In this document: piece after piece, positions 7,715 through 38,570 of the stretch | How the letters are laid out: each line of letters starts with the position of its first letter | How positions within the stretch are numbered: the first letter of the stretch is position 1 | Source: Prevotella sp. | Lineage (GTDB): Bacteria > Bacteroidota > Bacteroidia > Bacteroidales > Bacteroidaceae | Assembly (NCBI GenBank): GCA_017413085.1 | Contig: JAFPVC010000052.1 | Span: forward strand, 1-64,000 | Length of the DNA stretch: 64,000 nucleotides | Direction of reading: 5' to 3' | Position numbers and translations under genes: made by a program | Notes under the pieces: model-generated | What the model saw: the letters and a program-made list of their open reading frames with translations, nothing else | The model's database searches: none | What the model was told of the DNA's origin: nothing

Positions 7715-7743
7715 TTTGTTTCGGAAATATTTTGTAACTTTGC
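7715..7743 (+). promoter_or_regulatory. Promoter of the Ca2+ ATPase gene
   Basis: -7 box TAACTTTGC at 7735-7743, with a TTTG at 7715-7718 that is closer than the usual 19-20 bases. The expected start of transcription lies just inside the first 74-bp repeat. Confidence 0.6.
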
Positions 7744-7960
7744 ACTCGCAAACTCGCAAAGGCGACCACGAGCCAGCTGCGCTGACACTCGTTGTTTGCT
7801 TTGTGCGATAGCATTGCACTCGCAAATCAGAGACGTGCGCCATTCTTGCGAATGACACGCACTATTTGCTTCTTGCGATAGCATTGCACTCGCAAACTCG
7901 CCAAGGCGACCACGAGCCAGCTGCGCTGACACTCGTTGTTTGCTTTGCACGATACATTAC
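7742..7960 (+). repeat. 74-bp structured repeat array, 3 units, in the ATPase leader
   Basis: Units start at 7742, 7816 and 7886 (periods 74 and 70). Each has an outer stem (GCAAAC with GTTTGC), a small hairpin (TCGC/GCGA) and a larger hairpin (CGAG...CTCG, with a CAGC/GCTG tip here). The middle unit is very different in sequence but keeps pairing: GCAAAT with ATTTGC, GTGCG with CGCAC, CATTC with GAATG. The same family occurs at 28531 and 38422. The array ends nine bases before the ATPase ATG. Confidence 0.88.
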
Positions 7961-7968
7961 ATTTTAAA

Positions 7969-10968
7969 ATGAGAACAAATAAATATAAAGGACTGACAGA
8001 TGCAGAGGTGACGGAAAGCCGCGCACGGTATGGTGCTAACGTGCTTTCGCCCGCTGAACCTGTCTCTTTCTGGGGGCATCTGAAGAACGTGTGCTGCCAT
8101 CCACTCTCTGTGGCGATGGCGGTGCTGGTGGTGCTGACTACCGCTTTTGCAGCCTTACTGGCCGCCAGTGCCGGTACCATGATATGGGTTATGCCCGCCG
8201 CCTGCGCCACCAGTGCACTGCTGATACTGCTCGTAGGCTTCTTCGGCGGTTATGCCGACCCGCTGTTTAGGATACTCATCATCGCATTCGTGCTGTCGAT
8301 GGGTATTTCTGTATATGAGTTTGAGTGGCACGGTGAGGGCTGGACGGTGTTCTTTGAACCCATAGGCATCATCGTTGCGCTGATACTCGCCACGGGCATT
8401 GCCTATTATCTGGAGAGGAAAAACGAAAAGACATTTCAGAGCCTTAACCAGACCAACGACGATACCCTGGTGAAGACTTACCGCAACGGCCGACTCTGCG
8501 AGGTGATGCGCAAGGACATCGTGACGGGCGACATCGTCAGGCTCGACACTGGTGAGGAGGTACCGGCAGACTGCGTGCTGCTTGAGGCTGCCAGCCTTAC
8601 GGTCGACGAATCATCGCTGACGGGCGAGCCGCTGGCACGCAAGACCACCGTGGAAGATGAGTTTGACGGCGATGCCACCTACCGTTCCAATGAAATAAAG
8701 AAAGGTACTACAGTCATTGAGGGACACTGTGTGGCTCGCGTCACGGAGGTGGGCGATATGACGGAGAGCGGTGCCGTATACCGTTCACTCACCGTTGGTG
8801 GCGAGAACCGCGTGGGCTGGCTGTTGAGGGATGAAGACAACGGCACAGTGATAGGGAAATACAGTACAGAGGGTGAGGCCCGCGAGGCACAGAAGGCATA
8901 CGTAGAGGAGCATGAAGAGGCCGACGTGGTGGTGGAGCAGCCCCTCGTCGACAGGATGCGCGTGCGTCAGGGCAGCGAGACACCGCTGAGCCGCAAGTTG
9001 AATGTGCTTGCTAAATGGATAACACGCGCCAGTTATGCAGTGGCCGCCCTCGTGGTGGTGGGGCGCATAACGTGGTACTGCATTACCGCTGAGGCCGTGT
9101 CGGGTTCGCCTGAGGCATGGATGAACCTTGTGAGCTATGTGCTGAAGACGGTGATGATAGCCGTCACGCTGATAGTGGTGGCAGTGCCAGAGGGACTGCC
9201 CATGTCGGTTACGCTGAGCCTTGCCTTCAGTATGCGCAAACTGATGAAGACCGGCACGCTGCCGCGCACCATGCACGCCTGCGAGACGATGGGTGCTGCC
9301 TCGGTCATCTGCACCGACAAGACCGGTACGCTCACGAAAAACCAGATGGAGGTGGCAGACTGTAGGTTGGCTGACGTGGATGCCGACCTGCTTGCAGAAA
9401 TGATAGCCTTGAACTCCACGGCAGACCTTGATACCACGACCAATGAAACGAAGGTGATAGGCAACCCCACCGAAGGGGCGCTGCTGATGTGGCTGGGAGG
9501 CAAGGGGTATGACTACCTCAGTCTGCGCGAGGCTGCCGACATAACGGACAGTCTGCCGTTTTCCACCGAAAACAAATACATGGCCACGGCGGTAGCATCG
9601 GCGGTGACGGGTAAGCGGATGCTGTATGTGAAAGGTGCACCGGAGATACTGCTCGGTATGTCAGGCATCAGCAAGGCAGAGCGCAGTGCATACGAGGAAA
9701 CACTGGCGGGATATCAGAGCCGTGCCATGCGCACGCTGGCACTGGCGTATGCAGAGTTGGATGAGAACGAAACGGAGAATCCATTTGAGCAAAGACTTGT
9801 GAAGAAGGCGGGGACGCTGACATTCGCTGGCGTGTTTGCCCTGCACGACGACATACGCGAGGGAGTGAGCGAGTCGATTGCCGACTGCATGAGGGCGGGT
9901 ATTGCCGTGAAGATAGTGACTGGCGACACACCCGGTACTGCCGTGGAGATAGGCAGGAAGATAGGACTGTGGACAGATGCCGACACCGATCGCAACATCA
10001 TAACGGGCGACGAGCTTGCCGCACTCAGTGACAGCGAACTTGCCGTGCGAGCCATGGATATAAAGATAATAGCACGCGCACGACCCATGGACAAGAAACG
10101 CCTCGTTGAGGCACTGCGCCACTGCGGACAGGTGGTGGCTGTGACGGGCGACGGCACCAACGATGCTCCGGCACTGAACGCTGCCGACGTGGGACTGGCT
10201 ATGGGCAACGGTACCGCCGTGGCGAAGGATGCGTCGGACATGATAATCCGCGACAACTCGTTCAGCACCATAGCCAATGCGGTGATGTGGGGACGCTCGC
10301 TCTTCAAGAACATACAGCGTTTCCTGCTGTTCCAGCTCACGGTCAACGTGGCTGCCTGCTTCTTGGTGCTCTGCGGCGCATTCATGGGTACGGAGTCGCC
10401 GCTCACAGTGACGCAGATGCTGTGGGTAAACCTTATCATGGACACCTTCGCCGCCATAGCCCTGTCGGCACTGCCGCCGCAACGCAGTGTAATGAATGAG
10501 CCTCCACGCAGTCAGCAGACGTTTATACTTGACCGCGCGATGTTGCGCAACATCTTCGGCGTGGGCGGTTTCTTCTTTGTGCTGACGTTTGCAATGCTGG
10601 TGATATTCCAACATACCGACATTACAGACATCAGACAGCTGGCAGGTGTTTCGCCGGGTGGCCGCAGTGAGGTGACGGTCTATGAGTTGACGTTGCTCTT
10701 CACCGTCTTCGTAATCACCCACATGGGATACATGTTCAATGCGCGCGCCTACAATACCGGTGGTTCAGGATGGAACCTGAAAGGCTGCGACGGATTCCTG
10801 CTCATAGCCACGGTGGTGACGCTGGGGCAGGTGGCCATAGTGCAGTTGCCCGTGCTCAACCAGTTTTTCAATGTCAGTCCGCTTCGCTTGTCAGACTGGG
10901 TAGTCATCCTCATTCTCGGCTTCCTCGTCAGTGCAGTGCGCGAAGTATATTCAAAAATTAAGAATTAA
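7969..10968 (+). CDS. Calcium-translocating P-type ATPase (P2B/PMCA-like)
   Basis: 999 residues. It exports Ca2+ from the cytoplasm using ATP. In order: cation N-domain, membrane helices, actuator domain with DESSLTGEP, PEGLPMSV in helix 4, phosphorylation site CTDKTGTLTKNQM with Asp at about 450, KGAPE nucleotide-binding motif, GDGTNDAPAL hinge, and C-terminal helices with NLIMDTFAA. The ATG at 7969 is preferred to an in-frame TTG at 7936, which would lie inside the repeat array. An insertion between the actuator and helix 3 (around residues 285-330, rich in Glu) is seen in Bacteroidota homologues. It is a single gene with its own promoter and a repeat-array leader. Confidence 0.93.
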   Translation: MRTNKYKGLTDAEVTESRARYGANVLSPAEPVSFWGHLKNVCCHPLSVAMAVLVVLTTAFAALLAASAGTMIWVMPAACATSALLILLVGFFGGYADPLFRILIIAFVLSMGISVYEFEWHGEGWTVFFEPIGIIVALILATGIAYYLERKNEKTFQSLNQTNDDTLVKTYRNGRLCEVMRKDIVTGDIVRLDTGEEVPADCVLLEAASLTVDESSLTGEPLARKTTVEDEFDGDATYRSNEIKKGTTVIEGHCVARVTEVGDMTESGAVYRSLTVGGENRVGWLLRDEDNGTVIGKYSTEGEAREAQKAYVEEHEEADVVVEQPLVDRMRVRQGSETPLSRKLNVLAKWITRASYAVAALVVVGRITWYCITAEAVSGSPEAWMNLVSYVLKTVMIAVTLIVVAVPEGLPMSVTLSLAFSMRKLMKTGTLPRTMHACETMGAASVICTDKTGTLTKNQMEVADCRLADVDADLLAEMIALNSTADLDTTTNETKVIGNPTEGALLMWLGGKGYDYLSLREAADITDSLPFSTENKYMATAVASAVTGKRMLYVKGAPEILLGMSGISKAERSAYEETLAGYQSRAMRTLALAYAELDENETENPFEQRLVKKAGTLTFAGVFALHDDIREGVSESIADCMRAGIAVKIVTGDTPGTAVEIGRKIGLWTDADTDRNIITGDELAALSDSELAVRAMDIKIIARARPMDKKRLVEALRHCGQVVAVTGDGTNDAPALNAADVGLAMGNGTAVAKDASDMIIRDNSFSTIANAVMWGRSLFKNIQRFLLFQLTVNVAACFLVLCGAFMGTESPLTVTQMLWVNLIMDTFAAIALSALPPQRSVMNEPPRSQQTFILDRAMLRNIFGVGGFFFVLTFAMLVIFQHTDITDIRQLAGVSPGGRSEVTVYELTLLFTVFVITHMGYMFNARAYNTGGSGWNLKGCDGFLLIATVVTLGQVAIVQLPVLNQFFNVSPLRLSDWVVILILGFLVSAVREVYSKIKN

Positions 10969-10973
10969 AGGGG

Positions 10974-11170
10974 ACTTCTATTTATTATCGCCTTTGGCGA
11001 GAAGGTTTAGCTCGGCGGCCTGAAGGGGAACCAACGGTCGGCGGCCCGAAGGGGAAAGCCAAAGCCAAATCATTCAAATCTACTCAAATCACTCAAAATA
11101 ATGAAAAATTTGAAAAGATTTGAGAGATTTCTGCCACGAAGTGGCAACCTGGTCAATAGAAAATACCTAA
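10974..11170. repeat. Intergenic palindromic and reiterated sequences
   Basis: The gap between the ATPase and HAD genes opens with TTCTATTTATTATCGCCTT, nearly the same as a stretch at about 7617, and ends with a GCCACGAAGTGGC palindrome, also found at about 7636. In between are CGGCCTGAAGGGGAA/CGGCCCGAAGGGGAA direct copies and AAATC(T/A)-CTCAAATCACTCAAA repeats. No promoter box was recognised. Confidence 0.55.
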
Positions 11171-11182
11171 AGATTATGAATT

Positions 11183-11995
11183 ATGAACTACCTCATCGCC
11201 CTTGACCTTGACGGCACGCTTACCAATGAGCGTAAGGAGATAACGCCGCGCACAAAAGATGTGCTGATGCGCCTGCAACGGCAGGGGGCACGGCTGTGCC
11301 TGGCATCAGGACGTCCACCTTATGGTATGCGTCCGCTGGCAGAACAGCTGCACATGGCAGAGTATGGTGGCATACTGCTGTGTTATAATGGCGGACACGT
11401 GGAGGAGTGCGCCACGGGCAGGGTGCTGACAGAGCATACGCTCGACGAGCGGCTGCTGCCACGGCTTGTAGAGTGGCAGCATGAGTCGGGCATGACGCTG
11501 ATGACATACCACGGCGACACGATATATACGGAGAAACCTAAGGATGAATACGTGGCGCGGTCGTCGCGCAACAACAAGATGCGCGTTGAGGGTGTGGCCG
11601 ACTTCGTTCGCGACACGCCGCGACCGCTCAATAAGTGCCTGATGGTGGGCAACCCGGCTGTGGTGGCAGAGTGGGAGCAGCGAATGGCCGACGAGATGGG
11701 CGACAGAATGCACATACTCCATTCCACACCATATTTCATAGAACTGCTGCCGCCGGGCATAGACAAGGGAGCCGCCATTGAAGCCGTGGTGCACCACTGC
11801 GGATTGACGCGTGACAGCCTGATTGCTTTCGGCGACAGCCATAACGACATTGATATGCTGTGTGTGGCCGCCGTGGGCGTGGCGATGGGAAATGCAGAAG
11901 AAGAGGTGAAACGTGCCGCCACCCACGTCACGCTCAGCAATGAAGAAGACGGCGTGGCGGTGTTTCTTCAATCCTTCAACCCTTCAATTCTATAA
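11183..11995 (+). CDS. HAD-superfamily hydrolase, Cof type
   Basis: 270 residues. Motif I is ALDLDGTLTNE (Asp nucleophile at about residue 8), the cap domain is of the C2 type, and the late motif is IAFGDSHNDIDML with the two acidic Mg2+ ligands. Cof-type phosphatases act on sugar phosphates, pyridoxal phosphate or flavin nucleotides; the substrate here cannot be told. The last residues (LQSFNPSIL) are encoded by a TTCAATCCTTCAA repeat tract that also supplies the stop codon, so the C-terminus looks rewritten by the repeat. An O-methyltransferase gene follows 51 bases later. Confidence 0.9.
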   Translation: MNYLIALDLDGTLTNERKEITPRTKDVLMRLQRQGARLCLASGRPPYGMRPLAEQLHMAEYGGILLCYNGGHVEECATGRVLTEHTLDERLLPRLVEWQHESGMTLMTYHGDTIYTEKPKDEYVARSSRNNKMRVEGVADFVRDTPRPLNKCLMVGNPAVVAEWEQRMADEMGDRMHILHSTPYFIELLPPGIDKGAAIEAVVHHCGLTRDSLIAFGDSHNDIDMLCVAAVGVAMGNAEEEVKRAATHVTLSNEEDGVAVFLQSFNPSIL

Positions 11996-12046
11996 CCCTT
12001 CAATCCTTCAATTTTTTAATTTTTCAACTCTTCAATTCTTCCTATC
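11968..12046. repeat. TTCAATCCTTCAA reiterated tract
   Basis: About nine imperfect copies of a 7-8 base motif (CTTCAAT, CTTCAACC, TTTTCAAC) run from inside the HAD gene's last codons to the start of the methyltransferase gene. It is the same motif as in the tracts at 38581, 39571, 47126 and 52179. Confidence 0.8.
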
Positions 12047-12718
12047 ATGCGCAGCAAGACACAAGACCCAAACCACACAACGTTGCAGGGCGAGCGCGTG
12101 CTCGACGAGTATGTGATAAGTCACAGCGACCCAGAACCAGAATACCTGTATCGCCTGTGGCGTGCCACCAACGTTCACATGCTTCATGGACGCATGGCAT
12201 CAGGACGTCTGCAAGGTCGTCTGCTCAAGATGCTGGTGCAGATGATAAAGCCCGAGAACATAATAGAGGTAGGCACGTTCTCAGGCTATTCCGCCCTGTG
12301 CATGGCAGAGGGTATGGAGAGCGGACGGCTCTATACATTTGAAATCAATGACGAGCAGGAACCATTCACGCGCCGCTGGATAGAAGAGTCGCCGTGGGCA
12401 GAGCGCATCACCTTTATAATAGGCGACGCACAGACAGAGGCGGCGAAACTCGGAGTGCAGTTTGACATGGCTTTCCTCGACGGCGACAAGCGCACATACG
12501 TAGAGACATACGAGGCACTGCTGCCGCTGATGTCGCCGGGAGCGTTCATACTGGCCGACAATACTCTGTGGGACGGTCATGTTACAGACCCAGAATATGA
12601 CCGTGACCGCCAGACGCAGGGCATACGCAGGTTTAACGACCACGTAGCAGCCGACGACAGGGTGGCGCGGGTGATTCTGCCCCTGCGCGACGGACTTACG
12701 ATAATAAGGAAACGCTAA
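12047..12718 (+). CDS. O-methyltransferase, class I SAM-dependent (Methyltransf_3/caffeoyl-CoA type)
   Basis: 223 residues. The SAM-binding motif I is IIEVGTFSGYSALCMAEG (around residues 73-90); the acidic motif II is YTFEIND, and FLDGDK and ADNTLWDG match the metal-binding positions of the catechol/caffeoyl-CoA O-methyltransferase group. The physiological acceptor in Bacteroidota is not known. The first ATG directly follows the reiterated tract; an internal start is possible but the family N-terminus fits. A compact terminator overlaps its stop. Confidence 0.88.
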   Translation: MRSKTQDPNHTTLQGERVLDEYVISHSDPEPEYLYRLWRATNVHMLHGRMASGRLQGRLLKMLVQMIKPENIIEVGTFSGYSALCMAEGMESGRLYTFEINDEQEPFTRRWIEESPWAERITFIIGDAQTEAAKLGVQFDMAFLDGDKRTYVETYEALLPLMSPGAFILADNTLWDGHVTDPEYDRDRQTQGIRRFNDHVAADDRVARVILPLRDGLTIIRKR

Positions 12719-12741
12719 TCCCGATGAAATGGGGATTTTTT
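12717..12741 (+). terminator. Terminator after the O-methyltransferase
   Basis: AATCCC and GGGGATT arms with a short loop and T6. It overlaps the stop codon region. Confidence 0.7.
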
Positions 12742-12798
12742 GAAACAAAACGTGCATTATAGGAAACAAAACGGGTAGCTTAGTTTAGAATTAAAGTG

Positions 12799-12807
12799 TA
12801 AATTTGC
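12799..12807 (+). promoter_or_regulatory. -7 box of the SusC/SusD locus
   Basis: TAAATTTGC, 61 bases before the SusC start. Upstream are two copies of GAAACAAAACG (about 12741 and 12763), which could be a regulator site. There is no HTCS or ECF regulator gene next to this locus. Confidence 0.6.
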
Positions 12808-12868
12808 AAGCGGAAATTTACACTCAGAAACAAATCCTTAAACAACAATCATAACTAAACTAAGCAAC

Positions 12869-15800
12869 ATGGACTTAAAAAATCATCTTTACCGTACAGA
12901 CGGCAAAAGAGGGATTTTGCGTAAATCCCTTTACGCTGGCATGGCAATGACCATGCTGGCTGCTGGTGCGCCATGTGTCCAGTCGTTTGCAGCATCGCCG
13001 GAAGCGTTGGTGCAAGCACAGGACAGTAAGGTTCAGGGAAAGGTCACTGACCAGAACGGTGAACCGCTCATCGGCGTTTCAATTCAAGTAAAAGGTACTC
13101 AGGGCGGAACCGTGACCGACATGGACGGCAACTTCTCGCTCAATGCTGCACCGGGCTCAACGCTCGTCGTCAGCTATGTGGGCTACCAGACACAGACCCT
13201 CAAGGCTTCATCTACGATGAGCATCACCATGCAGGATGATGCACAGTCGCTCGATGAGCTCGTGGTGGTGGGCTACGGCACCATGAAGAAGAAACTCGTC
13301 ACCGGTGCTACAACGCAGGTGAAGGGCGACGACATCATGAAACTGAACACCACGACTGCACTGCAGGCACTGCAGGGACAGACACCTGGCGTTAATATCG
13401 CTGCTACATCAGGACAGCCTGGTGCAGACATGAACGTAACCATCCGAGGCCTTGGCACCATAGGTAATTCACAACCTCTTTATATCATAGATGGTGTGGC
13501 TGGCGACATGACACTGCTTAACCCTGCCGACATTGAGCGCATCGACGTATTGAAGGATGCTGCCTCTGCTGCCATCTATGGTGCACAGGCTGCAAATGGT
13601 GTCATACTCGTTACGACAAAGAGCGGTCAGGAAGGTAAAGGCAGGATTTCTTACGACGGCTATGTAGGCTGGCAGTCAGTGCCACGTAAGTTTGAAATGC
13701 TCAACGCCCAGGAATACATGACAATAATTGATGAGGCACGACTCAATTCTGGTATGTCACCAGTTGACTGGCAAGCAATCAACTTCATCCATGATGCCAA
13801 CGGCAACGTATATGATACAGACTGGATAAACCAGGCATTCGAAGACGGTGCACTCACTACGAGTCACAACCTCTCCGTCACCGGCGGTTCAAAGACTTCC
13901 ACATACGTTGTTTCTGGCGGATACATGGGACAGGATGGTGTCGTAGGTGGCTCTGACGTGTCATATTATAAGAGATACAACTTCCGTGCAAACTCTGAAC
14001 ATAAATTACATGACGGAATGGTAGTTGTTGGTGAGCACGTAGGATTTGCATGGAAAGACTCACGCGGCATGAGCACAGGTAATATATGGAACAACAACCT
14101 GCGCTCTGCATTCGCAGCATCGCCTATTAATCCTGTGTATGATGCTTATGGCAATTATTCTGGCACAAAGTTTAGTGACTGGAACCCCAATGACGGCAAT
14201 CCTTACGGCAACATGACGTCAAACCGTTTCAACCGTAGTCAGGGAGCTACGCTTGATGCCAACGCTTACATGCAGATAGAACCCCTGAAAGGTCTGAAAT
14301 TCAAGACAGTATTCGGTATCAGCTACAACAGCAGCGAGTATCGTTCATATACTCCGCAATATGAATACACTGCCCAAAATGCACACAACATCTCAGAAGT
14401 GTCACAGAGTAATGGTCATGGCAAGGCACTGACATGGACTAACACTCTAAGTTATGATTTCACTCTGAAGGGCGGACATGCCATCAATACCCTTTTCGGA
14501 ACAGAATGGTCACGCTATGACGGAAACTACACAAGCGGCAGCAACAATGCCATAGTAGCCGGCTTTGATGATTGGGAACACGCATACCTTTCAAATACGG
14601 AAGGAACGCAAAGTATAACCCTGAAAGGCGCACCGTATGACGACACCCGTGGCATGTCATTCTTCTGGCGTGCAGGATGGACTTGGAAAGAGCGCTACAT
14701 GATTAACGCAACATTGCGTGCCGACAAGTCTTCAAAGTTTGCAGAAGGACACCGCACTGGTTGGTTCCCATCAGTCAGCGGCGGCTGGACAATATCAGAG
14801 GAGAAGTTCATGGCAAGCACAAAATCATGGATGGACTTCCTGAAACTCCGCGTAAGCTGGGGACAGGTGGGTAATGCTAACGTGCCATGTTTCCGTTTCC
14901 TTGCTCCTGTTACGGCAGAAAACACTCATTACAATTTTGGTACAGATGGCGGACAGACAGGATGGTCAACGGGTGCCTACCCAAGTAGATTGGCTAATCC
15001 CGAACTCAAATGGGAGACATCAGAACAGTTTAATGTAGGTGTTGATGCACGCTTCATCAACAGCAGACTTGCACTGACAACAGATTTCTATATCAAGAAA
15101 ACCATAGACTGGCTTATCAACGCACCTACGTTTGTAACATCGGGTGTACCTGAAAAACTCATAAATGGTGGTGACGTAAAGAATACGGGTGTAGAAGTTA
15201 GTCTGACGTGGAACGACAACATAGGAAAGGATTTCCATTATAACATAGGTGGAAACTTCGCATATAACCACAACAAGGTTATTAACATACCAACACCAGA
15301 CGGAATAAATCACGGTCCGGAAAATCAGGTTTATACTAACGCAGAGGAATACTATCGTGCAGAAAATGGCCATGCTTTGGGTTATTTTTGGGGATTCAAG
15401 ACTGCTGGTATTTTCCAGAACCAGCAGGAAATCAATGACTGGATTGCTGCCGGCAACGGTATTCTTCAGTCTAAGGTACAGCCTGGTGACGTAAAGTATG
15501 TAGACATCAACCACGACGGCACCATTAATGCAGATGATAAGGTTGACCTTGGCAACGGTATGCCTAAGTACACCTTCGGTCTCAACCTTGGTTGTGAATG
15601 GAAGGGATTTGATTTCTCTATGAACTTTATCGGAGCAGCAGGATTCAAGATAGTACAGTCGTATCGTGATCCAAGTTCTTCACAGGGCAACTACAGCCGT
15701 GCAATACTCAACCGCTGGACAGGTGAAGGCACATCTAACACCATGCCACGCGTGACATACGGTGACGTAGGCAACTGGATTTTTTCTGACCTCTACACAC

Positions 15801-16066: not shown

Positions 16067-16120
16067 TGTTGGAATCCCAAACAGTTTCTCCAAATTACAT
16101 CTAAACAATTTAACAACGAA

Positions 16121-27604: not shown

Positions 27605-27609
27605 CATCG

Positions 27610-28478: not shown

Positions 28479-28532
28479 GATAAATCCCCATTTTAAGGTA
28501 TTGCACAGAATTTGGAAAAGCATTAACTTTGC
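28479..28532 (+). promoter_or_regulatory. Conserved promoter block before the 5-unit array
   Basis: -7 box TAACTTTGC at 28524-28532. The 45 bases before it (GATAAATCCCCATTTTAAGG, then TATTGCA and GAAT) are closely similar to the block at 38369-38423 before the third array. Promoter and repeats thus look like one duplicated module. Confidence 0.7.
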
Positions 28533-28910
28533 ACTCGCAAACTCGCTAAGGCGACCACGAGCCTGCTGCGCAGACACTCGTTGTTTGCTTCATGCGATAA
28601 CATTGCACTCGCAAACTCGCTAAGGCGACCACGAGCCTGCTGCGCAGACACTCGTTGTTTGCTTCATGCGATAACATTGCACTCGCAAACTCGCTAAGGC
28701 GACCACGAGCCTGCTGCGCAGACACTCGCTGTTTGCTTCATACGATAACATTGCACTCGCAAACTCGCTAAGGCGACCACGAGCCTGCTGCGCAGACACT
28801 CGCTGTTTGCTTCGTGCGATAACATTGCACTCGCAAACTCGCTAAGGCGACCACGAGCCTGCTGCGCAGACACTCGCTGTTTGCTTCGTGCGATAACATT
28901 GCACTCGCAA
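28531..28910 (+). repeat. 74-bp structured repeat array, 5 units, in the TonB/HMA cluster leader
   Basis: Units start at 28531, 28605, 28679, 28753 and 28827, exactly 74 bases apart, with a partial sixth at 28901. The units differ at only a few positions (for example TCGTTG or TCGCTG, TTCATGCG or TTCGTGCG). Each can fold as outer stem GCAAAC/GTTTGC enclosing TCGC/GCGA and CGAG-CTGC...GCAG-CTCG. Each unit ends in GATAACATTGC, one base from a -7 box. There are no spacers, so this is not a CRISPR. Confidence 0.92.
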
Positions 28911-28913
28911 AAA

Positions 28914-28970
28914 GGGATACCACAAGACTAAAGCGTGGAAATCTTAACGCAAAGGCCTGTATGGCATCCC
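28914..28970 (+). promoter_or_regulatory. Candidate structured leader element with a possible pseudoknot
   Basis: GGGAT-a-CCA (28914-28922) pairs with TGG-c-ATCCC (28962-28970). Inside, AAGA (28924-28927) can pair with TCTT (28942-28945), and GCGT (28933-28936) with ACGC (28947-28950), in an interleaved H-type pattern. It lies 27 bases before the TonB receptor start. It resembles no riboswitch class I can name; chance pairing is possible. Confidence 0.4.
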
Positions 28971-28997
28971 AAACAAAATTAGACGTTGCAAAGGTAT

Positions 28998-31058
28998 ATG
29001 TTTTTTTTCAATATAGCAAAATATTTCGGACGTAAAGCATTTTTTTGCGTTTTTTTAACCTTGCCTGTTTCTTTTACAGCAGCGCAGGACAGTACTTCCA
29101 TGGGACAAAAGGACGTGGAACTCAGCGACGTGGTCGTGGAGGGTGGCACTGTGAGGAAATTCCAAGGCACGGTGAATGCTGAGATGATTTCCACCACCGA
29201 ACTCTTTCGCGCTGCCTGCTGTAACCTCGGCGAGAGTTTCTCCACCAATCCTTCGGTGGATGTGAGTTATTCTGATGCTGCCACTGGTGCGCAGCAGATA
29301 AAGTTGCTCGGACTTTCTGGCACTTACGTGCAGATGCTGACGGAGAACATTCCCAACTATCGCGGCGCGGCTATGCCTTATGCCTTGAGTTATGTGCCTG
29401 GCACATGGATGCAGAGCATACAGGTGTCGAAGGGGGCCTCGTCGGTAAAGAATGGTTATGAAAGCATAACGGGACAGATAAACGTGGAGTTTAAGAAACC
29501 ACAGGCGACGCAGTTTGTTGAGGCTAATGCCTTCCTCAACACTATGGGGAAATGGGAGGCGAACTTCCAGGGCAACCTGCACCTTGGAAAGAAATGGCGC
29601 ACGGCGCTGCTGCTGCATTACGAAGACATGAACTCTGCCCACGACAGCAACAAGGACGGGTTCGTAGATATGCCTAAGGTGCGCCAATACAGTGCCATGA
29701 GCCGCTGGTTCTATAAAAGCACGCACCACATGTCGCAGTGGAGCATAAAGGGAATGAAGGAGAAACGTCGCGGCGGACAGATAGGGCATGACAACAACCA
29801 TGCGTGCGACCCTTATCTTATAAATATTGACAATGACCGCTATGAGGCTTTTGCAAAGAATGCGCTTCTGTTTAACGACTCGCACAATACCAACATTGCG
29901 CTGATACTCTCTGGTTCACTGCATCTGCAGGATGCCGCCTACGGCAACAGACAGTATGAGGTGAACGAGAAGAACTTCTATGCCTCGCTGATGTATGAGG
30001 CAGAATACGGCGAGCACCACAGCCTGTCGGCAGGGGTGAGCCTGAACCATGACTATTTTAGTGAAGAGTTAAGAGTGAAGAGTGAAGAAGGTTCATCACA
30101 TTTTTCACTTTTCACTTCTCACTTTTCACTCCTTCCCAAAGAAACCGTCCCCGGTGCATACGTGCAGTACACATATAAAATGGGAGAGACGCTGACAGCC
30201 ATGGCGGGACTGCGCATAGACCACAGCAATGTGTATGGCACATTCTGGACACCACGCGCACATGTGAAGTGGGCGCCGGGCAGCATTGTGTCGCTGCGTG
30301 CATCGGTGGGCAAGGGCTACCGCACGCCACATGTGCTGGCAGAGAACAACAACCTGCTGGCAAGCAGCCGCAGTCTGCTGGTAAGTGAACGGATAAGCCA
30401 GGAGGAGGCATGGAACTACGGCATCAGCATGCAGTGGAACATACCCGTAGCCGGCAAGACGCTGAACCTCAATGCAGAGTATTATTATACGAACTTCTTG
30501 CACCAGATGGTCATCGACATGGACACTGACCCACACGCTGTGATGTTTCGCAATCTTGACGGCGACTCATATTCGCATACATGGCAGGTGGACGCTACAT
30601 ATCCGTTCTTTAGAGGTTTTACGGCAACAGCCGCATACCGCCGCACAAACGTGAAGTGCACCTATGGCGGACTGCTGATGGAGAAACCGCTGACAAACCG
30701 CTACAAGGGACTGCTCACCATGTCGTATAAGCCCGGACTGGAGAAATGGCAGTTTGACCTCACGCTTCAACTGAACGGCGGCGGACGTATGCCTGCTGCC
30801 TATCAGAACGCTGACGGCACACAGTCGTGGGGCACGGAGTTTAGGGCATACGAACAGCTCAATGCGCAGGTGACGCGCTACTTCCGTCACTTCTCCATAT
30901 ATGCGGGTGGCGAGAACATCACGGGCTTCAAGCAGAAGAACCCCATCGTCGGTGCTGACAATCCGTGGGGCGACATGTTCGACTCCACAGTGGTATGGGG
31001 ACCTATGCGCGGAGCAATGTATTACATTGGCATACGCTTCAACTGGAAAAAGATATAA
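28998..31058 (+). CDS. TonB-dependent outer-membrane receptor (first of the metal-type cluster)
   Basis: 686 residues. A signal peptide (about 1-32) leads directly into the plug domain: VELSDVVVEGGT, then GESFSTNPSVDVSYSDAATG, IQVSKGASSVKNGYESITG. The barrel ends in YIGIRFNWKKI. There is no N-terminal carboxypeptidase-like domain and no SusD partner, so it is a small-ligand receptor rather than a glycan one. The neighbouring HMA protein suggests a metal or metal complex. Residues about 355-380 (SEELRVKSEEGSSHFSLF...) are encoded by an inserted palindromic repeat. The ATG at 28998 is preferred over an upstream TTG. Confidence 0.9.
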   Translation: MFFFNIAKYFGRKAFFCVFLTLPVSFTAAQDSTSMGQKDVELSDVVVEGGTVRKFQGTVNAEMISTTELFRAACCNLGESFSTNPSVDVSYSDAATGAQQIKLLGLSGTYVQMLTENIPNYRGAAMPYALSYVPGTWMQSIQVSKGASSVKNGYESITGQINVEFKKPQATQFVEANAFLNTMGKWEANFQGNLHLGKKWRTALLLHYEDMNSAHDSNKDGFVDMPKVRQYSAMSRWFYKSTHHMSQWSIKGMKEKRRGGQIGHDNNHACDPYLINIDNDRYEAFAKNALLFNDSHNTNIALILSGSLHLQDAAYGNRQYEVNEKNFYASLMYEAEYGEHHSLSAGVSLNHDYFSEELRVKSEEGSSHFSLFTSHFSLLPKETVPGAYVQYTYKMGETLTAMAGLRIDHSNVYGTFWTPRAHVKWAPGSIVSLRASVGKGYRTPHVLAENNNLLASSRSLLVSERISQEEAWNYGISMQWNIPVAGKTLNLNAEYYYTNFLHQMVIDMDTDPHAVMFRNLDGDSYSHTWQVDATYPFFRGFTATAAYRRTNVKCTYGGLLMEKPLTNRYKGLLTMSYKPGLEKWQFDLTLQLNGGGRMPAAYQNADGTQSWGTEFRAYEQLNAQVTRYFRHFSIYAGGENITGFKQKNPIVGADNPWGDMFDSTVVWGPMRGAMYYIGIRFNWKKI
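30058..30134. repeat. Reiterated-arm palindrome inserted in frame in the TonB receptor
   Basis: The left arm GTGAAGAGTTAAGAGTGAAG... and the right arm ...TTTTCACTTTTCACTTCTCA are approximate reverse complements made of reiterated units. About 26 low-complexity residues result, in a region between barrel strands where an extra outer loop would be tolerated. Confidence 0.7.
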
Positions 31059-31116
31059 GCCTCTAACTCCCCCCCAAAAAAATAAGTACACCATTATTAA
31101 TAAAAAACAAAGCAAA

Positions 31117-31539: not shown

Positions 31540-31611
31540 TCCATTGACGTTAACGTAAGAAAAACTATTTTTCCCAAACAAAATTAGACAAACAAAAACA
31601 AAATTAGACAA

Positions 31612-32889: not shown

Positions 32890-32903
32890 AAAGTGAATAG
32901 TAA

Positions 32904-35666
32904 ATGATAACCCGACTATTACTCTCTCTCTTCCTAGCCATCATCACGCTTTCGGCTGCTGCCCAGACGTGCACGGTGAGAGGAAGGGTATATACAGAAC
33001 ACGATGGCGAGGCGGCAAGCTTCGCCATCGTGAGTATTAATTCGCAGGAACTCAAGACCGTCTGCGACATCAACGGACGTTTCGAACTGCACGGCGTGCC
33101 AGTGGGCAAGCAGGTGATAGAGGCGGAATGCCTCGGATATGCAACCACGAAGCATACCTTCACGGCATCGCAGGGCATGGCTGACATCCGTCTGACCCTG
33201 AAGAACAACAGCTTCGCACTGCCTGAACTGCAGGTGATGGCAAAGAAAAGCCGCATGGGCAAGGTACTTGTTGACGAGACGGCGCTGGAGTACATACAGC
33301 CCACGTCGCTGGCCGACGTGATGCTCTTGTTGCCCGGCTCGGTGTATAAGGAGAACAACCTGACACAGTTTTCGCAGATATCGTCGCGACAGGTGGGCTC
33401 TGATGCCAACACGTCGCTCGGCGTGGGCGTGGTGACCGACGGCGCACCGATGACCAACGACGGCGTGCGCACGCAACTCGTGGGCGTGACCTCCAACTCG
33501 TCGGGCAGCAGCGACGGCGAGATAAAGAGTCGCACGGGCATGAACCAAGGTGCCGACATGCGCATGATTTCCACCGACCACATACAGAGCGTGGAGTTTA
33601 CGCGCGGCATATCGTCGGCACGCTACGGCAACCTATCAAGCGGCATGATAAGCATACAGTCGAAGCACGGCGTAACACCCCTGCGCATCCGACTGAAAAG
33701 CGACCTGAAGAACACCCTGGCATACATAGGCAAGGGATTCCGCCTTGGCGAAAAGGCAGGCACACTGCATGCCGGACTGGATTTCCTGCACTCTATCGAC
33801 GACATACGCGAGGAGATGGACAAGTTTTCACGACTGACGGGACAGCTGTATTACAATAACCAGCTGATGCTGGGCGCATACAGGCTCAACCTTGATGCGC
33901 GCCTGAGCCAGACGCTGACCGTCAGCAAGATGAAGAAAGACGAACTGACATACGAGTATGATGAGCTATACAAGGCCGACTATTCGCGCACGGCGCTGAT
34001 GCTGAAGGGTGGGCTGACGCTGGGCAAACCGTGGATGGACCACCTGGAGATGGTATTGCAGGCAGACTATACCCGCGACCGCATTACGCGCCACCGCATG
34101 GTGCTATCGGGCACAGGACCGCTCAACGTGCCGTTGGCCCACGAGGAGGGCGAGCACGAGGGCATCTACCTGCCGCGCAAGTATTACAGCGACTTCTACA
34201 TCGACAACAAGCCACTCAACATCTATGCGCAGCTGAATGCCGTGTCGCGCCTTGCGCTCATGAGGCACACGATGCTCAACATGCAGTATGGCCTGGAATA
34301 CACCAACGTGAAGAACCACGGACAGGGGGCTGTCATAGAAGACGAGACGCGACCGCCGTTTCCCTACGACAACTCATACATGCGCCCGCGCCCCAACTGG
34401 GCCATACCGTCGCTGGGCACGGGGGCAGCCTACATGCAGGCCGACTTCATATATGATGACAGGCAGCGCAACGTCGTCACGCTGTCACTGGGCGGACGAC
34501 TGACCGAGATGATGAACCTGCCTTCAGACTACTACCTGCACCGCCGTGTGCTGGCAGACCCGCGCATGAATGTGTCATACACCTATGGTGCGCAGTGGAA
34601 GCACACCCTGCGCATGGGCTATGGCACGGAGAGCAAACTGCCCACGCTCGACTATCTCTATCCGGAGAAGCTCTACAAGGACTTCTACATGCTCAATGCC
34701 TACACCAATGACCCGCAATACCGCCACCTGATAACATATACAAACATCTTTGACGTGACCAACACGCAGCTCAAGGCCAACAAGAACCATAAGTTTGAGG
34801 TGGGATATGACCTGGACTACAGGGGCTTCAGCCTGTCGCTGACGGGATTCTATGAGAAGTCAGACCAGGGCTTCGAGTATTTCAGGCAATACATGCCGCT
34901 GACCTATGACCTGTATCAGACACTGCGCGAAGGCGTGGACATCAGCGGCCGCACTCCGCAGAAGGAGGATTACGAGCATGAGCGATACACCGTCTTTACC
35001 ACGGCGAGCCGTGTGCAGAACTCAAGCAAGGTGACGAAGCGCGGACTGGAGTACCGCATCATCTTCCCACGCATAAAGAGCCTGCTGACAACGGTGGAGG
35101 TAAACGGTGCATACTACAAGACGGAGTATGCCTCGTCGTTGCCTGAGTATTACTATCCCGACGTCAGAATAGGCGGCAAGGAATATCCTTACGTCTGCAT
35201 ATACGACCGCGATGCGCGCACGGTGTATTCAAGGTTAAACTCAAACGTATGGTTCAACACCCACATACCGAAGTTCAAACTCTTCATAACAAACTTCTTC
35301 CAGATAGTGTGGTATAACTCTTCGCAGTACAAGGACACTCACGACATGGTGCCGGTGAAATACATTGATTCCGACGGACTGGTGCATGACATGGATGATG
35401 CCATGCGCACCCTCATAGCTGCCGACCACCCCGTGGTGCGCTATTTCAAGCAGACGCTCGACCCTGCCAAATATGCATTGACGAAGAAACCTGTTTCGCT
35501 GCTGTGGAACATCAAGGCCACAAAGGAATTCAAGCGCGGCACGAAACTGTCGTTCTTCGTCAACGGACTGCTCGACGTGAGTCCGGCATACGTAAGCGGC
35601 ACGAGCATTACGAAACGCGAATGGCACGACCCCTACTTCGGACTGGAACTGTATGTTAATTTATAG
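32904..35666 (+). CDS. TonB-dependent receptor with N-terminal carboxypeptidase-like domain
   Basis: 920 residues. Signal peptide (about 1-21), carboxypeptidase-regulatory-like domain (TVRGRVYTEHDGEAASFAIV), then a plug with LPELQVMAKKS and VEFTRGISSARYGNLSSG, and a barrel ending FGLELYVNL. It directly follows the DUF4876 lipoprotein and precedes a DUF6850 barrel protein, a triad that I recall as recurring in Bacteroidota. No SusD partner. Ligand unknown; the HMA gene upstream points to a metal species. The stop codon is followed at once by a G7 run. Confidence 0.9.
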   Translation: MITRLLLSLFLAIITLSAAAQTCTVRGRVYTEHDGEAASFAIVSINSQELKTVCDINGRFELHGVPVGKQVIEAECLGYATTKHTFTASQGMADIRLTLKNNSFALPELQVMAKKSRMGKVLVDETALEYIQPTSLADVMLLLPGSVYKENNLTQFSQISSRQVGSDANTSLGVGVVTDGAPMTNDGVRTQLVGVTSNSSGSSDGEIKSRTGMNQGADMRMISTDHIQSVEFTRGISSARYGNLSSGMISIQSKHGVTPLRIRLKSDLKNTLAYIGKGFRLGEKAGTLHAGLDFLHSIDDIREEMDKFSRLTGQLYYNNQLMLGAYRLNLDARLSQTLTVSKMKKDELTYEYDELYKADYSRTALMLKGGLTLGKPWMDHLEMVLQADYTRDRITRHRMVLSGTGPLNVPLAHEEGEHEGIYLPRKYYSDFYIDNKPLNIYAQLNAVSRLALMRHTMLNMQYGLEYTNVKNHGQGAVIEDETRPPFPYDNSYMRPRPNWAIPSLGTGAAYMQADFIYDDRQRNVVTLSLGGRLTEMMNLPSDYYLHRRVLADPRMNVSYTYGAQWKHTLRMGYGTESKLPTLDYLYPEKLYKDFYMLNAYTNDPQYRHLITYTNIFDVTNTQLKANKNHKFEVGYDLDYRGFSLSLTGFYEKSDQGFEYFRQYMPLTYDLYQTLREGVDISGRTPQKEDYEHERYTVFTTASRVQNSSKVTKRGLEYRIIFPRIKSLLTTVEVNGAYYKTEYASSLPEYYYPDVRIGGKEYPYVCIYDRDARTVYSRLNSNVWFNTHIPKFKLFITNFFQIVWYNSSQYKDTHDMVPVKYIDSDGLVHDMDDAMRTLIAADHPVVRYFKQTLDPAKYALTKKPVSLLWNIKATKEFKRGTKLSFFVNGLLDVSPAYVSGTSITKREWHDPYFGLELYVNL

Positions 35667-35669
35667 GGG

Positions 35670-35872
35670 GGGTAGAGTAGTTAAGGGGAGTTAGGGGAGT
35701 TAAGGGGAGATAGAGTAGTTAAGGGGAGTTAAGGGACAATAGTATCAGACTGTGTGGATAGAAATAGTATCAGACTGTGTGGATAGACAAACGTAATGTC
35801 CTTTAACTCCTTAACGGAGCGCAGCGGAGTGATAACTCCCTTTAACTCCCCTTAACTCCTTAAACAAACAAA
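35670..35872. repeat. Inverted GTTAAGGGGAG tracts and tandem 25-base repeat
   Basis: The left part reiterates GTTAAGGGGAGTTAG; the right part (about 35830-35868) reiterates its complement AACTCCCCTTAACTCC. Between them AATAGTATCAGACTGTGTGG occurs twice in tandem (about 35740 and 35765). The whole gap between the second TonB receptor and the DUF6850 gene is thus one large imperfect hairpin element, without a promoter box. Confidence 0.75.
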
Positions 35873-35887
35873 AACATCGAATAACGA

Positions 35888-37537
35888 ATGAAACGTATAA
35901 TATATATAATGATTTGCGTGGTTGCAGCAGCGTATGCAGCAGCACAGGAGCCTGTCAGCCTGTCGCTCTCTCCTGCAGAGGAACGCTTTGCGTTCTTCAC
36001 TGCCACTGCCGACCGCAGCAGCAGCCGTGCACTGACGGATAACCCTGCATGGCTTGCCACAAAGCAGTTTGTGGGCGACACCACGGCGCTGCAAGGACTG
36101 GTATATGCCGGTGTGGCGGGCTCTGACGCCGACGGCGACTTCATGCACTATGAGGGCACAGGCGCTACCGACTGGCGCATAGGAGCCAGTGGCACCTACG
36201 TCACGCCGCACAGCGGAACCCTTTCGGGCAGCATACAGTATGCGCGCGGCAAGCACCGCAACATCGGGTGGAGCGCCATGCGCATGCCCGAACTATACTT
36301 GCCCTACATCTCTACAGATTCATGCGGCGGCGACTTTAAGTTTGACAGCTACTATGCCGAGGGCGCATACTCCTTCAGCATCAACACATGGACGCTGGGG
36401 GCGCGTATGTCGTTCTACGGCGAACAGTCGTGGCGACTTACTGATCCTCGTGCGCTGAACAACACCACATGGCTGCGCTTTACCGCCGGAGCAACCAAGC
36501 AACTGGGGCAGCACCTCGTGATGCTCAGTGCCGGCTACGGGCGCAACAAACAGCATGAGCAACTGCGCTATTGGCGTCCGGGACAGCAGGACCGCTTCTT
36601 CGTGTGCTATGGCTTCGGACTCTACGATACACGCCAGAGTGCAGTGTCGTTTGGCAAGGCTCGTATGTTCTACATAGACGAGTTCACCGCACGTCTGCAA
36701 TATCTCTCACCTGCATCAAAAGCCCTGCGGCTGCATGCCTCGTTAGGATATACCCACCACAGCATGGCGACGGAGGAGAGCGATATATACAACCTTTATG
36801 AGAGCCGAACCGGCATCATCGAGCCACAGATGGTGCTTGCGTGGCAGCCGGATGAGAGATGGACGGTCACGCTGGGTGCCAGTGCAAGCATTGAGGCTCG
36901 CAAAGGCTATGAGAACATAATAGAGGAATATCTTGCCAATGCCGACTACAACAGTTATGACTTCCGCACCATCGACTCGCAGCAGAACTATGTGAGGGAT
37001 GTGAACACGGCAGATGTCTCGCTGAGTGTTTCAAGACTGTTCGGCAGGCTTTCACTCACTGTCCTTGGCGGGATGTCAGCCAACGGCTATGAAGAGAAAT
37101 ACCTCGGCGGCGTGTATAGCATAAAGGTGAATACCTCCATGCCTTACGTCGGACTTGAAACCGGCTGGCAGGCAGGTCGCCGCGACCGCCTGGGCGCATC
37201 CCTCCGCTATGGCAAGAGCACCATAGGTTCGCACCATTACGACGTTTTGATGCAGAACACCAAGGTGAAGCACCTCGACTTTCAGCAGGCTTTCGCACCC
37301 TACGCCTATCGTGCGGCAGACCTGACGAAGTTCGCTCTTTCCCTCTCATGGGAACACAGTCTCGCCCACCTCGCCGTAGGATTGTCGGCAAGCTATTATT
37401 CAGCCAGCGGCAACCGTCTGGCGGATGCCGTATATACCGGCACCATAGGCTATGCCTCCACCGCCCCTATGATTTCCGCCCAGCCCGATGTTCACAGAGA
37501 GCGCAGGGGTAGCCTCGCAGCATACGTGAAGTTCTGA
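35888..37537 (+). CDS. DUF6850-type outer-membrane beta-barrel protein
   Basis: 549 residues. Signal peptide (MKRIIYIMICVVAAAYAAAQ), then many alternating aromatic strands typical of an outer-membrane barrel (for example DWRIGASGTYVTPHSG, FTAGATKQLGQHL) and a C-terminal strand GSLAAYVKF ending in Phe, as expected for Bam insertion. It matches the barrel proteins I recall as found next to DUF4876 and TonB receptors. The function is unknown; possibly it works with the receptor in uptake or surface display. Confidence 0.75.
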   Translation: MKRIIYIMICVVAAAYAAAQEPVSLSLSPAEERFAFFTATADRSSSRALTDNPAWLATKQFVGDTTALQGLVYAGVAGSDADGDFMHYEGTGATDWRIGASGTYVTPHSGTLSGSIQYARGKHRNIGWSAMRMPELYLPYISTDSCGGDFKFDSYYAEGAYSFSINTWTLGARMSFYGEQSWRLTDPRALNNTTWLRFTAGATKQLGQHLVMLSAGYGRNKQHEQLRYWRPGQQDRFFVCYGFGLYDTRQSAVSFGKARMFYIDEFTARLQYLSPASKALRLHASLGYTHHSMATEESDIYNLYESRTGIIEPQMVLAWQPDERWTVTLGASASIEARKGYENIIEEYLANADYNSYDFRTIDSQQNYVRDVNTADVSLSVSRLFGRLSLTVLGGMSANGYEEKYLGGVYSIKVNTSMPYVGLETGWQAGRRDRLGASLRYGKSTIGSHHYDVLMQNTKVKHLDFQQAFAPYAYRAADLTKFALSLSWEHSLAHLAVGLSASYYSASGNRLADAVYTGTIGYASTAPMISAQPDVHRERRGSLAAYVKF

Positions 37538-37814
37538 GTGGTTCACAGCCTGCTGTGCTCAGCAATGTCAGTATTGGTACCTTTGTTGTGTTTTTTTACA
37601 TATAATTAGGCATGTAATTATCCATATAATTATCATTAATAATCTATTCTGCAGATATCATTTGACCTTATCTCTGATGTCATTAATGAATAATTATATG
37701 GGTATTCATGGACATTATATGTTGAAATTGTATTGACAAAGATGATAGCTTTTACAATCAGATTTGCTTTGAGGCTCTTTTTTGTTGATTCGTAGGCATG
37801 TACTGATACATTTT

Positions 37815-38090
37815 TTATACCAATTTCCCTTCTGATGAGAGAACTGTCTCAAAGATGAGGCTTTGGCGGTTACGGAGACATTCCTCACGTTGTGCCTCAC
37901 AATACTGTGCGGCTTTGAGGACTGCCTCAGAAGAATTCCAGTCGCCGAAACGATTCTGCGCCACTTGGTCGGGGTTGACGTACACAGCATCTTCCATCCA
38001 CTCGTGGCGCAAAATCTTTGAGGTGATGGTGGTCTTTCCAGAACCGTTCGGGCCGGCAATTACAATGAGGACAGGTTTGTGTGTTTTCAT
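37815..38090 (-). pseudogene. Truncated zeta-type toxin (P-loop kinase)
   Basis: 91 residues carrying only the N-terminal half of the zeta toxin family: Walker A IAGPNGSGKTT, YVNPDQVAQ and RQSLIFETVLSSEGK. Full-length proteins of this kind have about 190-200 residues, with the conserved RVxxGGH region; that part is absent here. Downstream frames do not restore it, so the 3' half seems lost. The start ATG overlaps the stop of the partner gene by one base (TAATG). Zeta toxins phosphorylate UDP-GlcNAc-type substrates; this form is probably inactive. Confidence 0.8.
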
Positions 38091-38269
38091 TATTGTGCTG
38101 TGGCTATTTTTTCGGCATCATGCTTTAGTCGAGAAAAGAAAAGAACAGTTGCTTCTTCTCTCCTCTGCTTTGCTTCAACGGCAGCCTCGTGCATCAGTTG
38201 GGCGAGAACCTCGTCTGTGGGTTCCTCCATGCTTGTCAGCTTGTATGTGTCTATCGTTTGTTGTGCCAT
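38090..38269 (-). CDS. Small partner (antitoxin-like) gene of the zeta toxin
   Basis: 59 residues from MAQQTIDTYKL, helical and charged: LAQLMHEAAVEAKQRREEA then FFSRLKHDAEKIATAQ. It precedes the zeta gene with a one-base overlap, as small companion genes of zeta-type toxins in Bacteroidota do. An earlier ATG at 38290 lies only four bases after the -7 box, so either the gene starts at 38269 with a 20-base leader or is leaderless from 38290 (66 residues). An antitoxin role is inferred from position. Confidence 0.6.
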   Translation of the reverse strand: MAQQTIDTYKLTSMEEPTDEVLAQLMHEAAVEAKQRREEATVLFFSRLKHDAEKIATAQ

Positions 38270-38294
38270 ACATCTTGTTTGTTTGTTCATCGTT

Positions 38295-38327
38295 GCAAAA
38301 TTACGAAAAAAAGCTTGTTCTGCCAAA
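38295..38327 (-). promoter_or_regulatory. Promoter of the zeta module
   Basis: Minus-strand TTTG at 38324-38327, 20-base spacer and TAATTTTGC at 38295-38303. Confidence 0.75.
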
Positions 38328-38368
38328 TAAAATACCTAAATTGTTGTTTTGTACATCGCAAACAGCAT

Positions 38369-38423
38369 GATAAAAACCTCATTTTTAGGTATTGCAGGGA
38401 ATGGAGAAAAGGTGTAACTTTGC
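38369..38423 (+). promoter_or_regulatory. Conserved promoter block before the 2-unit array
   Basis: GATAAAAACCTCATTTTTAGG, TATTGCA, GAAT and the -7 box TAACTTTGC at 38415-38423 align with 28479-28532. Outside this block and the array the two regions are unrelated. Confidence 0.7.
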
Positions 38424-38570
38424 ACTCGCAAACTCGCTAAGGCGACCACGAGCCTGCTGCGCAGACACTCGTTGTTTGCTTCGTGCGATAGCATTGTCAC
38501 TCGCAAACTCGCTAAGGCGACCACGAGCCTGCTGCGCAGACACTCGTTGTTTGCTTCGTGCGATAATATT
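38422..38570 (+). repeat. 74-bp structured repeat array, 2 units, in the flavodoxin leader
   Basis: Units start at 38422 and 38496 (the second has one inserted T: GTCACTCGC). Sequence is nearly the same as the units at 28531-28910, ending in CGATAATATTGC. Followed by a second hairpin element and then the flavodoxin gene. Confidence 0.9.

Follow-up and report, generated by a model that had tools for sequence, protein, structure and literature searches.

Three genes in a 64,000-nucleotide stretch of Prevotella sp. DNA (contig JAFPVC010000052.1 of assembly GCA_017413085.1, hereafter the window) are preceded by tandem arrays of a short hairpin-forming unit that begins exactly at the -7 box of a promoter. 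These units belong to a widespread family of hairpin insertions at promoter starts, most likely mobile and target-paired in DNA. We favour the reading, with a probability of about 0.5, that the unit is a small, non-autonomous mobile hairpin that is directed to transcription starts in part through pairing with the target sequence and would become the 5' leader of the gene it precedes. The mobility of the family and its promoter position are well supported by comparison of genomes, and an added function of the leader in RNA is possible. Units lie in the gene sense at promoters whose orthologous sites are empty in relatives, with a target duplication that is exact at one locus; one arm of the hairpin matches its target, units are gained and lost and cores exchanged between species, and the pairing shows no preference for G.T. 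The fold consists of an outer stem (GCAC/GTGC), a TC/TTC loop, a stem P1 (nnAAAn/nTTTnn), an optional small hairpin H1 and a P2/P3 core in which a lone unpaired C faces ACA.

Insertion at promoter starts

The clearest comparison is offered by the aldolase promoter in five close species, which is filled in G256 and G233 and empty in G181, G094 and G134. The empty start reads TAACTTTG-CATTCGCAAAA in G181 and G134 and CATTCCAAAAG in G094, and in the filled sites the unit is flanked by two copies of CATTCGCAAAA. In the filled and empty promoters compared, the insertion lies exactly 3' of TTTG, and the best locus has the native start sequence GCATTCGCAAAA clearly duplicated. Precise insertion, target duplication and an empty site in relatives, as for a miniature inverted-repeat transposable element (MITE), are thus found together at the aldolase locus. 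A second ftsZ gene has a promoter that is filled in G233 and empty in G181, G094 and G134; the DNA to the right of the insertion aligns poorly there. The pyruvate kinase promoter is filled in all five species with differing cores, arms and unit numbers (G134 and G256 being alike), and is apparently empty in G000, G198, G240, G204, G157 and G023. The tryptophanyl-tRNA synthetase (TrpRS) promoter is filled in G000 and G181, empty in G198 and G256, and holds an apparent decayed remnant in G233.

The start motif into which units insert is native to the genus. In 16 hairpin-free genomes, chosen as giving no match in the DNA search and lying outside the 14 genomes found positive below, TANNTTTGCAYTCG (GCAYTCG after the -7 box) occurs at 8-23 sites per genome, against 0-2 for a reversed control, and none of the start-motif loci shown from these genomes has a family hairpin by eye. 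The native motif TAnnTTTGCA(C/T)TCG is seen in hairpin-free Prevotella genomes at L463, L464, L466, L480, L482, L489 and L491, where it often precedes tRNA genes (the tRNAs being recognised by eye). In filled promoters the start sequence recurs closely downstream in 88 of 137 arrays by a loose criterion, identically in 38, and the six variable bases of this downstream repeat agree with their own locus at 4.6 of 6 positions and with other loci of the same genome at 3.3 of 6. The 137 arrays are those left from the 151 described next after 11 were dropped as cut, duplicated or misaligned and three more had no comparison locus.

The position of the family was assessed on 208 fetched matches, a part of all matches, which form 151 arrays, 43 of them multi-unit; one G240 array enters the count twice (L073/L084), and two near-copies of arrays that were kept, L082 and L139, were omitted. 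The first-pass annotation, made from the window's sequence alone, had placed the units in leaders on the gene strand and named copies on both strands and outside leaders as the finding to look for against it. No such scatter is seen: the motif TAnnTTTG exactly adjoins 145 of the 151 arrays, and sense orientation and leader position hold across the family. The six misses comprise two arrays cut by contig ends (L134, L142), two orthologs that have TTACTTTG instead (L157, L183), a partial match with its box further upstream (L085) and a transfer-messenger RNA (tmRNA) leader (L074). The base after TAnnTTTG is C in 141 of 146 arrays and the base before it is G in 86 of 146; since its two middle bases vary, the -7 box itself is probably not carried by the unit. 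A TTG lies at -33 spacing, 22-23 bp above the box, in 71 of 146 arrays, together with an A/T-rich tract near -46, and these are therefore real promoters of the usual Bacteroidota kind. In Flavobacterium psychrophilum this box has been mapped at -12 to -5 (PMC9723704, in the portion of that report available to us), which would place the junction at about -5/-4 and the RNA start at about the base of P1.

What lies downstream is heterogeneous. Where at least 900 nt of downstream DNA is available, the longer open reading frame (ORF) has the same sense as the array in 37 of 44 cases, and where less is available in 79 of 107. A Pfam match was obtained for 18 of 20 scanned downstream proteins, whose functions are unrelated and include aspartokinase, RidA, prephenate dehydratase, asparagine synthase, fructose-bisphosphate aldolase, pyruvate kinase, RtcB and FtsZ. 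Other arrays stand ahead of tRNA genes (L025, L032, L057, L064, L077, L101, L102), and in G307 a family hairpin immediately precedes a tmRNA without a recognisable adjoining -7 box (L074:1501-1560). At L081, L092 and the second array of L024 the longer frame in the fetched DNA is not evidently a sense ORF; these arrays may lead non-coding transcripts or distant genes.

The start sequence of each site is complemented by the outer 3' arm of the unit there (nTTTnC-TTC-GTGC), which would therefore close P1 and the outer stem in a single strand. ATGC arms occur in 7 of 8 units at the rare GCAT targets versus 22 of 171 at GCAC targets (Fisher 1e-5), a GTCC target is met by a GGAC or GGGC arm (L083) and a GCTTTT target by an AAAAGC arm (L090). 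One identical core is found in 14 units with four different P1 sequences (GTCAAA, GAAAAT, GGAAAA, AGAAAA), 12 of them fully paired, and at L067/L069 the arm has changed together with both the start copy and the downstream copy. It appears that compensatory change of the kind noticed in the first pass arises because the arm follows the start sequence.

Window arrays, their fold and their turnover

In the window, all ten units lie in three arrays on the + strand, each opening at the G of TAACTTTG and running in the sense of the next gene, as first described; a covariance search (E up to 0.01) found nothing further on either strand of the window. The features are as follows.

7735..7742, + strand: -7 box TAACTTTG of array 1, with the insertion point immediately 3' of the box
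7742..7808, + strand: array 1 unit 1, type A (outer stem GCAC/GTGC, P1 GCAAAC/GTTTGC, H1, P2 ACGAG/CTCGT, P3 CAGC/GCTG)
7816..7878, + strand: array 1 unit 2, type B (P1 GCAAAT/ATTTGC, without H1, P2 GTGCG/CGCAC, P3 CATTC/GAATG)
7886..7952, + strand: array 1 unit 3, type A
7969..10968, + strand: P-type cation ATPase gene (in-frame ATG at 7969; ORF listed from TTG 7936)
28524..28531, + strand: -7 box TAACTTTG of array 2
28531..28597, + strand: array 2 unit 1 of 5, type A
28605..28671, + strand: array 2 unit 2 of 5
28679..28745, + strand: array 2 unit 3 of 5
28753..28819, + strand: array 2 unit 4 of 5
28827..28893, + strand: array 2 unit 5 of 5
28894..28911, + strand: array 2 linker TAACATT and terminal partial repeat GCACTCGCAAA (at 28901; second copy of the start sequence)
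28986..31058, + strand: gene with a TonB-dependent receptor beta-barrel (ORF listed from TTG 28986; in-frame ATG at 28998)
38415..38422, + strand: -7 box TAACTTTG of array 3
38422..38488, + strand: array 3 unit 1 of 2, type A
38497..38563, + strand: array 3 unit 2 of 2, type A
38564..38582, + strand: array 3 linker TAATATT and diverged terminal repeat GCAGTCGGAAGA (at 38571)
38686..39180, + strand: flavodoxin gene

The period of 74 bp proposed at first holds within array 2, but array 1 has periods of 74 and then 70 and array 3 one of 75. The array starts stand and the ends had to be corrected: because arrays 2 and 3 continue into a linker and a partial repeat, the true unit consists of start sequence, hairpin and linker. 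Runs of 7-8 bp motifs (ATTGAAGA/TCTTCAAT, AGTGAAG/TTTTCAC) are dispersed through the window as well (2521, 11964-12041, 17815, 22909, 30060, 39577, 47175 and 52178-52265), and comparable runs occur near some hairpin leaders on other contigs.

The compensatory changes read from the window are exact (CTGC/GCAG to CAGC/GCTG, and GCAAAT/ATTTGC, GTGCG/CGCAC and CATTC/GAATG in the unit at 7816), the unpaired c and aca are retained between units, and the covariation they imply is not due to chance. Among 17 distinct units, 93.7% of 395 cells are paired and 67 cells show two-sided change versus 19.7 in shuffles (0 of 500 shuffles as high), with two-sided changes at 12 of 24 pairs; when the 3' partner is shifted by 1-3 columns, pairing is only 25-46%. 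Alignments of 76 and 117 distinct units, both fitted to the covariance model, have 95.7% and 94.2% of cells paired and 210 and 454 two-sided cells, again with 0 of 500 shuffles as high in either, and covariation scores of 0.331 and 0.428 versus 0.120 and 0.150 when shuffled. An extra hairpin (around GTCCGATrTTGAT...ATCGGAGTATG) is nested in the GTGCGA...TCGCAC linker hairpin at L117, L138 and L170.

This pairing looks like DNA rather than RNA, since the stems accept G.T no more readily than A.C. The 3020 cells of P1-P3 in 191 distinct units divide into 2823 Watson-Crick, 50 G.T, 47 A.C and 100 other, and the 488 cells of 23 tRNAs from the same genomes into 460 Watson-Crick, 28 G.T and no A.C, a control that is somewhat flattering because ARAGORN favours good pairs. 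A comparison of orthologous units (32 unit pairs that share loci and are not independent) gave 13 two-sided Watson-Crick changes versus 41 one-sided ones (9 G.T, 17 A.C, 15 other); two-sided change is well above what chance would give at such rates, but it does not proceed by the G.U route expected for RNA. The first-pass annotation had seen selection for a fold of either RNA or single-stranded DNA: the fold and its covariation stand, RNA as the thing selected is not supported, given the parity of G.T and A.C set against the tRNAs, and single-stranded DNA fits better. We also considered that the bottom strand alone might be the functional fold, as most mismatches in the outer stem and P2 of 17 units resembled G.T on the bottom strand. 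In the set of 191 units the pattern persists in the outer stem only (A.C 45, G.T 5) and not in P1-P3 (47 vs 50), so that the idea was dropped, and we attribute the A.C excess of the outer stem to the GCAC that is fixed at the start site.

Arrays also turn over. The core of the unit at 7816 is unlike both of its neighbours, giving array 1 an A-B-A order, and by eye mixed core types occur in six arrays (that at 7742, L024, L029, L030, L031 and L063); the five units from 28531 onward are nearly identical. Among the matches listed, the orthologous promoters L155/L182 and L158/L185 differ by one unit, and the flavodoxin promoter has two type-A units in the window versus two type-B units in G198. 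Mixed arrays and varying unit numbers attest to repeated insertion and loss.

Extent of the family

Searches beyond the window with a covariance model built without the -7 box (R1) and with a second model (R2) placed the family in at least four other genera and, within the genus, in 14 of 299 genomes including the window's own. The own genome has 43 R1 matches (E up to 0.1) and the 13 other positive genomes have 59, 34, 56, 25, 61, 67, 4, 5, 3, 1, 1, 3 and 2 (E up to 0.01); the numbers of positive genomes given here are lower bounds because stricter filters apply to searches of more than 40 genomes. R2 matched 7 of 399 genomes of the taxonomic family, namely the own genome and one in each of six other genera. 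Four of these six loci (L386, L388, L389 and L390) adjoin TAnnTTTG and L387 is one of the later units in an array truncated where its contig ends; L391 (G506), which is without a promoter and reads like coding DNA, was rejected as a chance match. In a sample of 395 genomes of the phylum the own genome alone matched, and among metagenome assemblies R1 scored solely in those of Prevotellaceae/Bacteroidales (80 searched of at least 119 pattern-matching contig stretches). The hairpins at L119 (G094) and L386 (G431, another genus) are closely related and their downstream DNA is very similar by eye, a likeness across genera that suggests recent horizontal transfer between the two lineages.

None of 53 pattern matches in IMG/VR scored with R1, and phages and plasmids gave no match to two array 2 units. 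Rfam 15 had no gathering-score match in the window and, for six further element loci at E up to 5, nothing except a tRNA. As supposed at the outset, no described family with this unit was found in Rfam or in the literature searched, which consisted mostly of papers outside subscription.

Alternative readings and what the family may mean

Regulatory RNA is the chief competing explanation. The P1-P3 fold at the transcript 5' end could be a cis-regulatory element controlling stability, elongation or translation for many genes, with tandem units acting as a dose; in a variant, the leader could be bistable, the arm toggling between the repeat at the start and the one downstream. Riboswitches and the HK022 put RNA are structured 5' leaders and likewise place a folded sequence at the extreme 5' end of transcripts. 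Sense orientation, leader position, the prevalence of same-sense longer frames (37 of 44 and 79 of 107), retention at orthologous promoters and strong covariation all agree with this, as does a transcript that would begin near the base of P1. We nonetheless regard it as rather unlikely. The helices covary but do not favour G.U over A.C, the outer stem tracks rare target changes although its 5' half would precede the start, and insertion with target matching requires no RNA. Unlike the known leaders, the family shows insertions with target duplication and non-RNA-like pairing ahead of unrelated genes and tRNAs; the identified downstream genes have no common function, and copies precede tRNAs and a tmRNA, whose leaders are removed.

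If mobility is accepted, the question becomes what moves the unit. A tyrosine recombinase could treat the start sequence as an attachment core (TTT-GCACTCG-nAAA, 7 bp between inverted arms), the units being gene-less attC-like cassettes moved by an integrase of CTnDOT or integron type. The start sequence on both sides of the insertion and cassette-like arrays from repeated insertion in one orientation are as expected, and the CTnDOT attB core GTANNTTTGC, which our literature search did not turn up, resembles the -7 box plus the GC at the unit start; CTnDOT-type (IntDOT) elements differ from the family unit in that the latter is under 100 bp and gene-less. The integron attC site is, in the part of its description available to us (PMC2727003), a folded single strand recognised by shape, with two short stems, an unpaired spacer, extrahelical bases and a variable tip, and with R boxes that carry AAC and GTT. 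The family has the same order of stem, unpaired spacer, stem and variable tip, a comparable freedom of sequence and head-to-tail arrays at one receptor site, but this is a resemblance only: P1 ends in AAAT/ATTT, AAAA/TTTT, AAAC/GTTT and others, so that only some units fit AAC/GTT and most lack it. Unlike integron cassettes, the unit has no gene and uses dozens of receptor promoters per genome, and one arm follows the receptor where attC holds both arms itself. The G before the box (86 of 146) is not clearly special, and no integrase is linked to the elements, none having been sought. We consider this route unlikely.

Still less probable, in our judgement, is a palindrome of REP (repetitive extragenic palindrome) or IS200 type that a Y1 transposase (RAYT or IS200/IS605) inserts 3' of TTTG with the help of a short guide. 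IS200/IS605 elements insert 3' of a short fixed motif and combine a hairpin with conserved bulges and guide-target pairing; to our knowledge, they do not duplicate their target. The family shares with REP/REPIN sequences and their IS200/IS605-related RAYT proteins a short, multi-copy, extragenic, bulged imperfect hairpin without its own gene, but unlike these it sits in sense at promoter starts, with a target repeat and a 10-nt target-matching arm, and shows no detected link to Y1 genes. REP elements of RAYT transposases share their genome with a RAYT/Y1 gene, which the repeat usually flanks. Here PF01797 (Y1 transposase) is found in 7 of 13 genomes that have the element and in 8 of 16 that lack it, and no element lies beside any of 20 Y1 loci, so that the Y1 transposase was set aside as the mover. 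RAYT-like Y1 proteins of 326-340 aa are nevertheless encoded at L379:1030-2007 (G000 C2; 326 aa) and L376 (G008), with further Y1 matches at L380 and L378 and in 327-aa open frames of G198 and G307; three RAYT-like proteins score 34.8-43.3 bits against a curated NCBIfam cut-off of 80, and that of G000 is a weak candidate for the mover. MITEs resemble the family in being non-autonomous, able to carry tandem repeats and present in Bacteroidales, as illustrated by a minisatellite-bearing MITE of P. gingivalis (PMC4596501, as far as the accessible text goes). The family differs from them in its strict targeting of promoter starts, and terminal inverted repeats of a parent transposon were not seen in it, parents having been sought only via Y1 genes; the units do have inverted arms, one of which follows the target. 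It is scarcely credible, finally, that the arrays are ordinary tandem duplications of leader DNA with accidental stems. Local expansion does occur, as in the five units at 28531, but one fold with differing sequences recurs at many loci and in several genera at a constant promoter position, with covariation far beyond shuffles, and we take this explanation as already refuted.

According to the mobile-hairpin reading, a unit of about 65-90 bp would insert in gene sense exactly 3' of the -7 box (TAnnTTTG^CA...), keeping the promoter intact and leaving about 11 bp of native start sequence (typically GCACTCGnAAA) duplicated on both sides, at least at the best locus. The constant part of the unit would be its core, P2/P3 with its conserved unpaired C opposite AC(A), and the 3' arm would act as a guide that pairs with the target on single-stranded DNA, perhaps the non-template strand of an open promoter complex, during insertion or excision by a putative enzyme acting in trans. 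Arrays would grow and shrink by re-insertion at the same site and by recombination between direct repeats. Transcription would then start at about the base of P1, so that the unit may form a folded 5' leader that is tolerated or used by the host.

Several observations weigh against this reading. Elements are kept at orthologous promoters in close species, which is also compatible with a useful leader. The mover was not found: the PF01797 counts given above come from incomplete assemblies, and the domain was not seen in G256 (81% complete), which has 67 element matches. The duplication is exact at one locus only, the repeats at the ftsZ, pyruvate kinase and TrpRS promoters being similar and not identical, and the second repeat is unrecognised in 49 of 137 arrays, and some of the 88 recognised ones are weak anchors that fall within the linker. 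A single P1 position is unpaired in two of the 14 copies of the commonest core. The empty site could also be the scar of a deletion between repeats, a possibility that is weakened at the aldolase promoter because GCAYTCG starts are native in hairpin-free genomes. Lastly, the two pieces of the arm that match the target are separated by a constant TTC, which disfavours a simple copying of the target and favours a guide-like pairing requirement.

A bolder proposal, which we offer tentatively, is that of a self-addressing, gene-less hairpin of under 100 bp that finds promoters by pairing its guide arm with the non-template strand exposed at the transcription start, inserts there with duplication of the start sequence and so gives dozens of transcripts, from housekeeping and tRNA genes, new 5' ends, a promoter parasite that may be comparable to short interspersed nuclear elements. 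Covariation in a leader need not imply a functional RNA, and the joint change of both arms is here better explained by target pairing in DNA. Pairs of filled and empty promoters, together with the parity of A.C and G.T, make the question directly testable, and the repeats provide ready markers for a search for the enzyme. If the reading is true, transcription start sites would be a defined target of a bacterial mobile element, with base pairing contributing to the choice, and an entire set of leaders in Prevotella of the rumen and gut would be of mobile origin.

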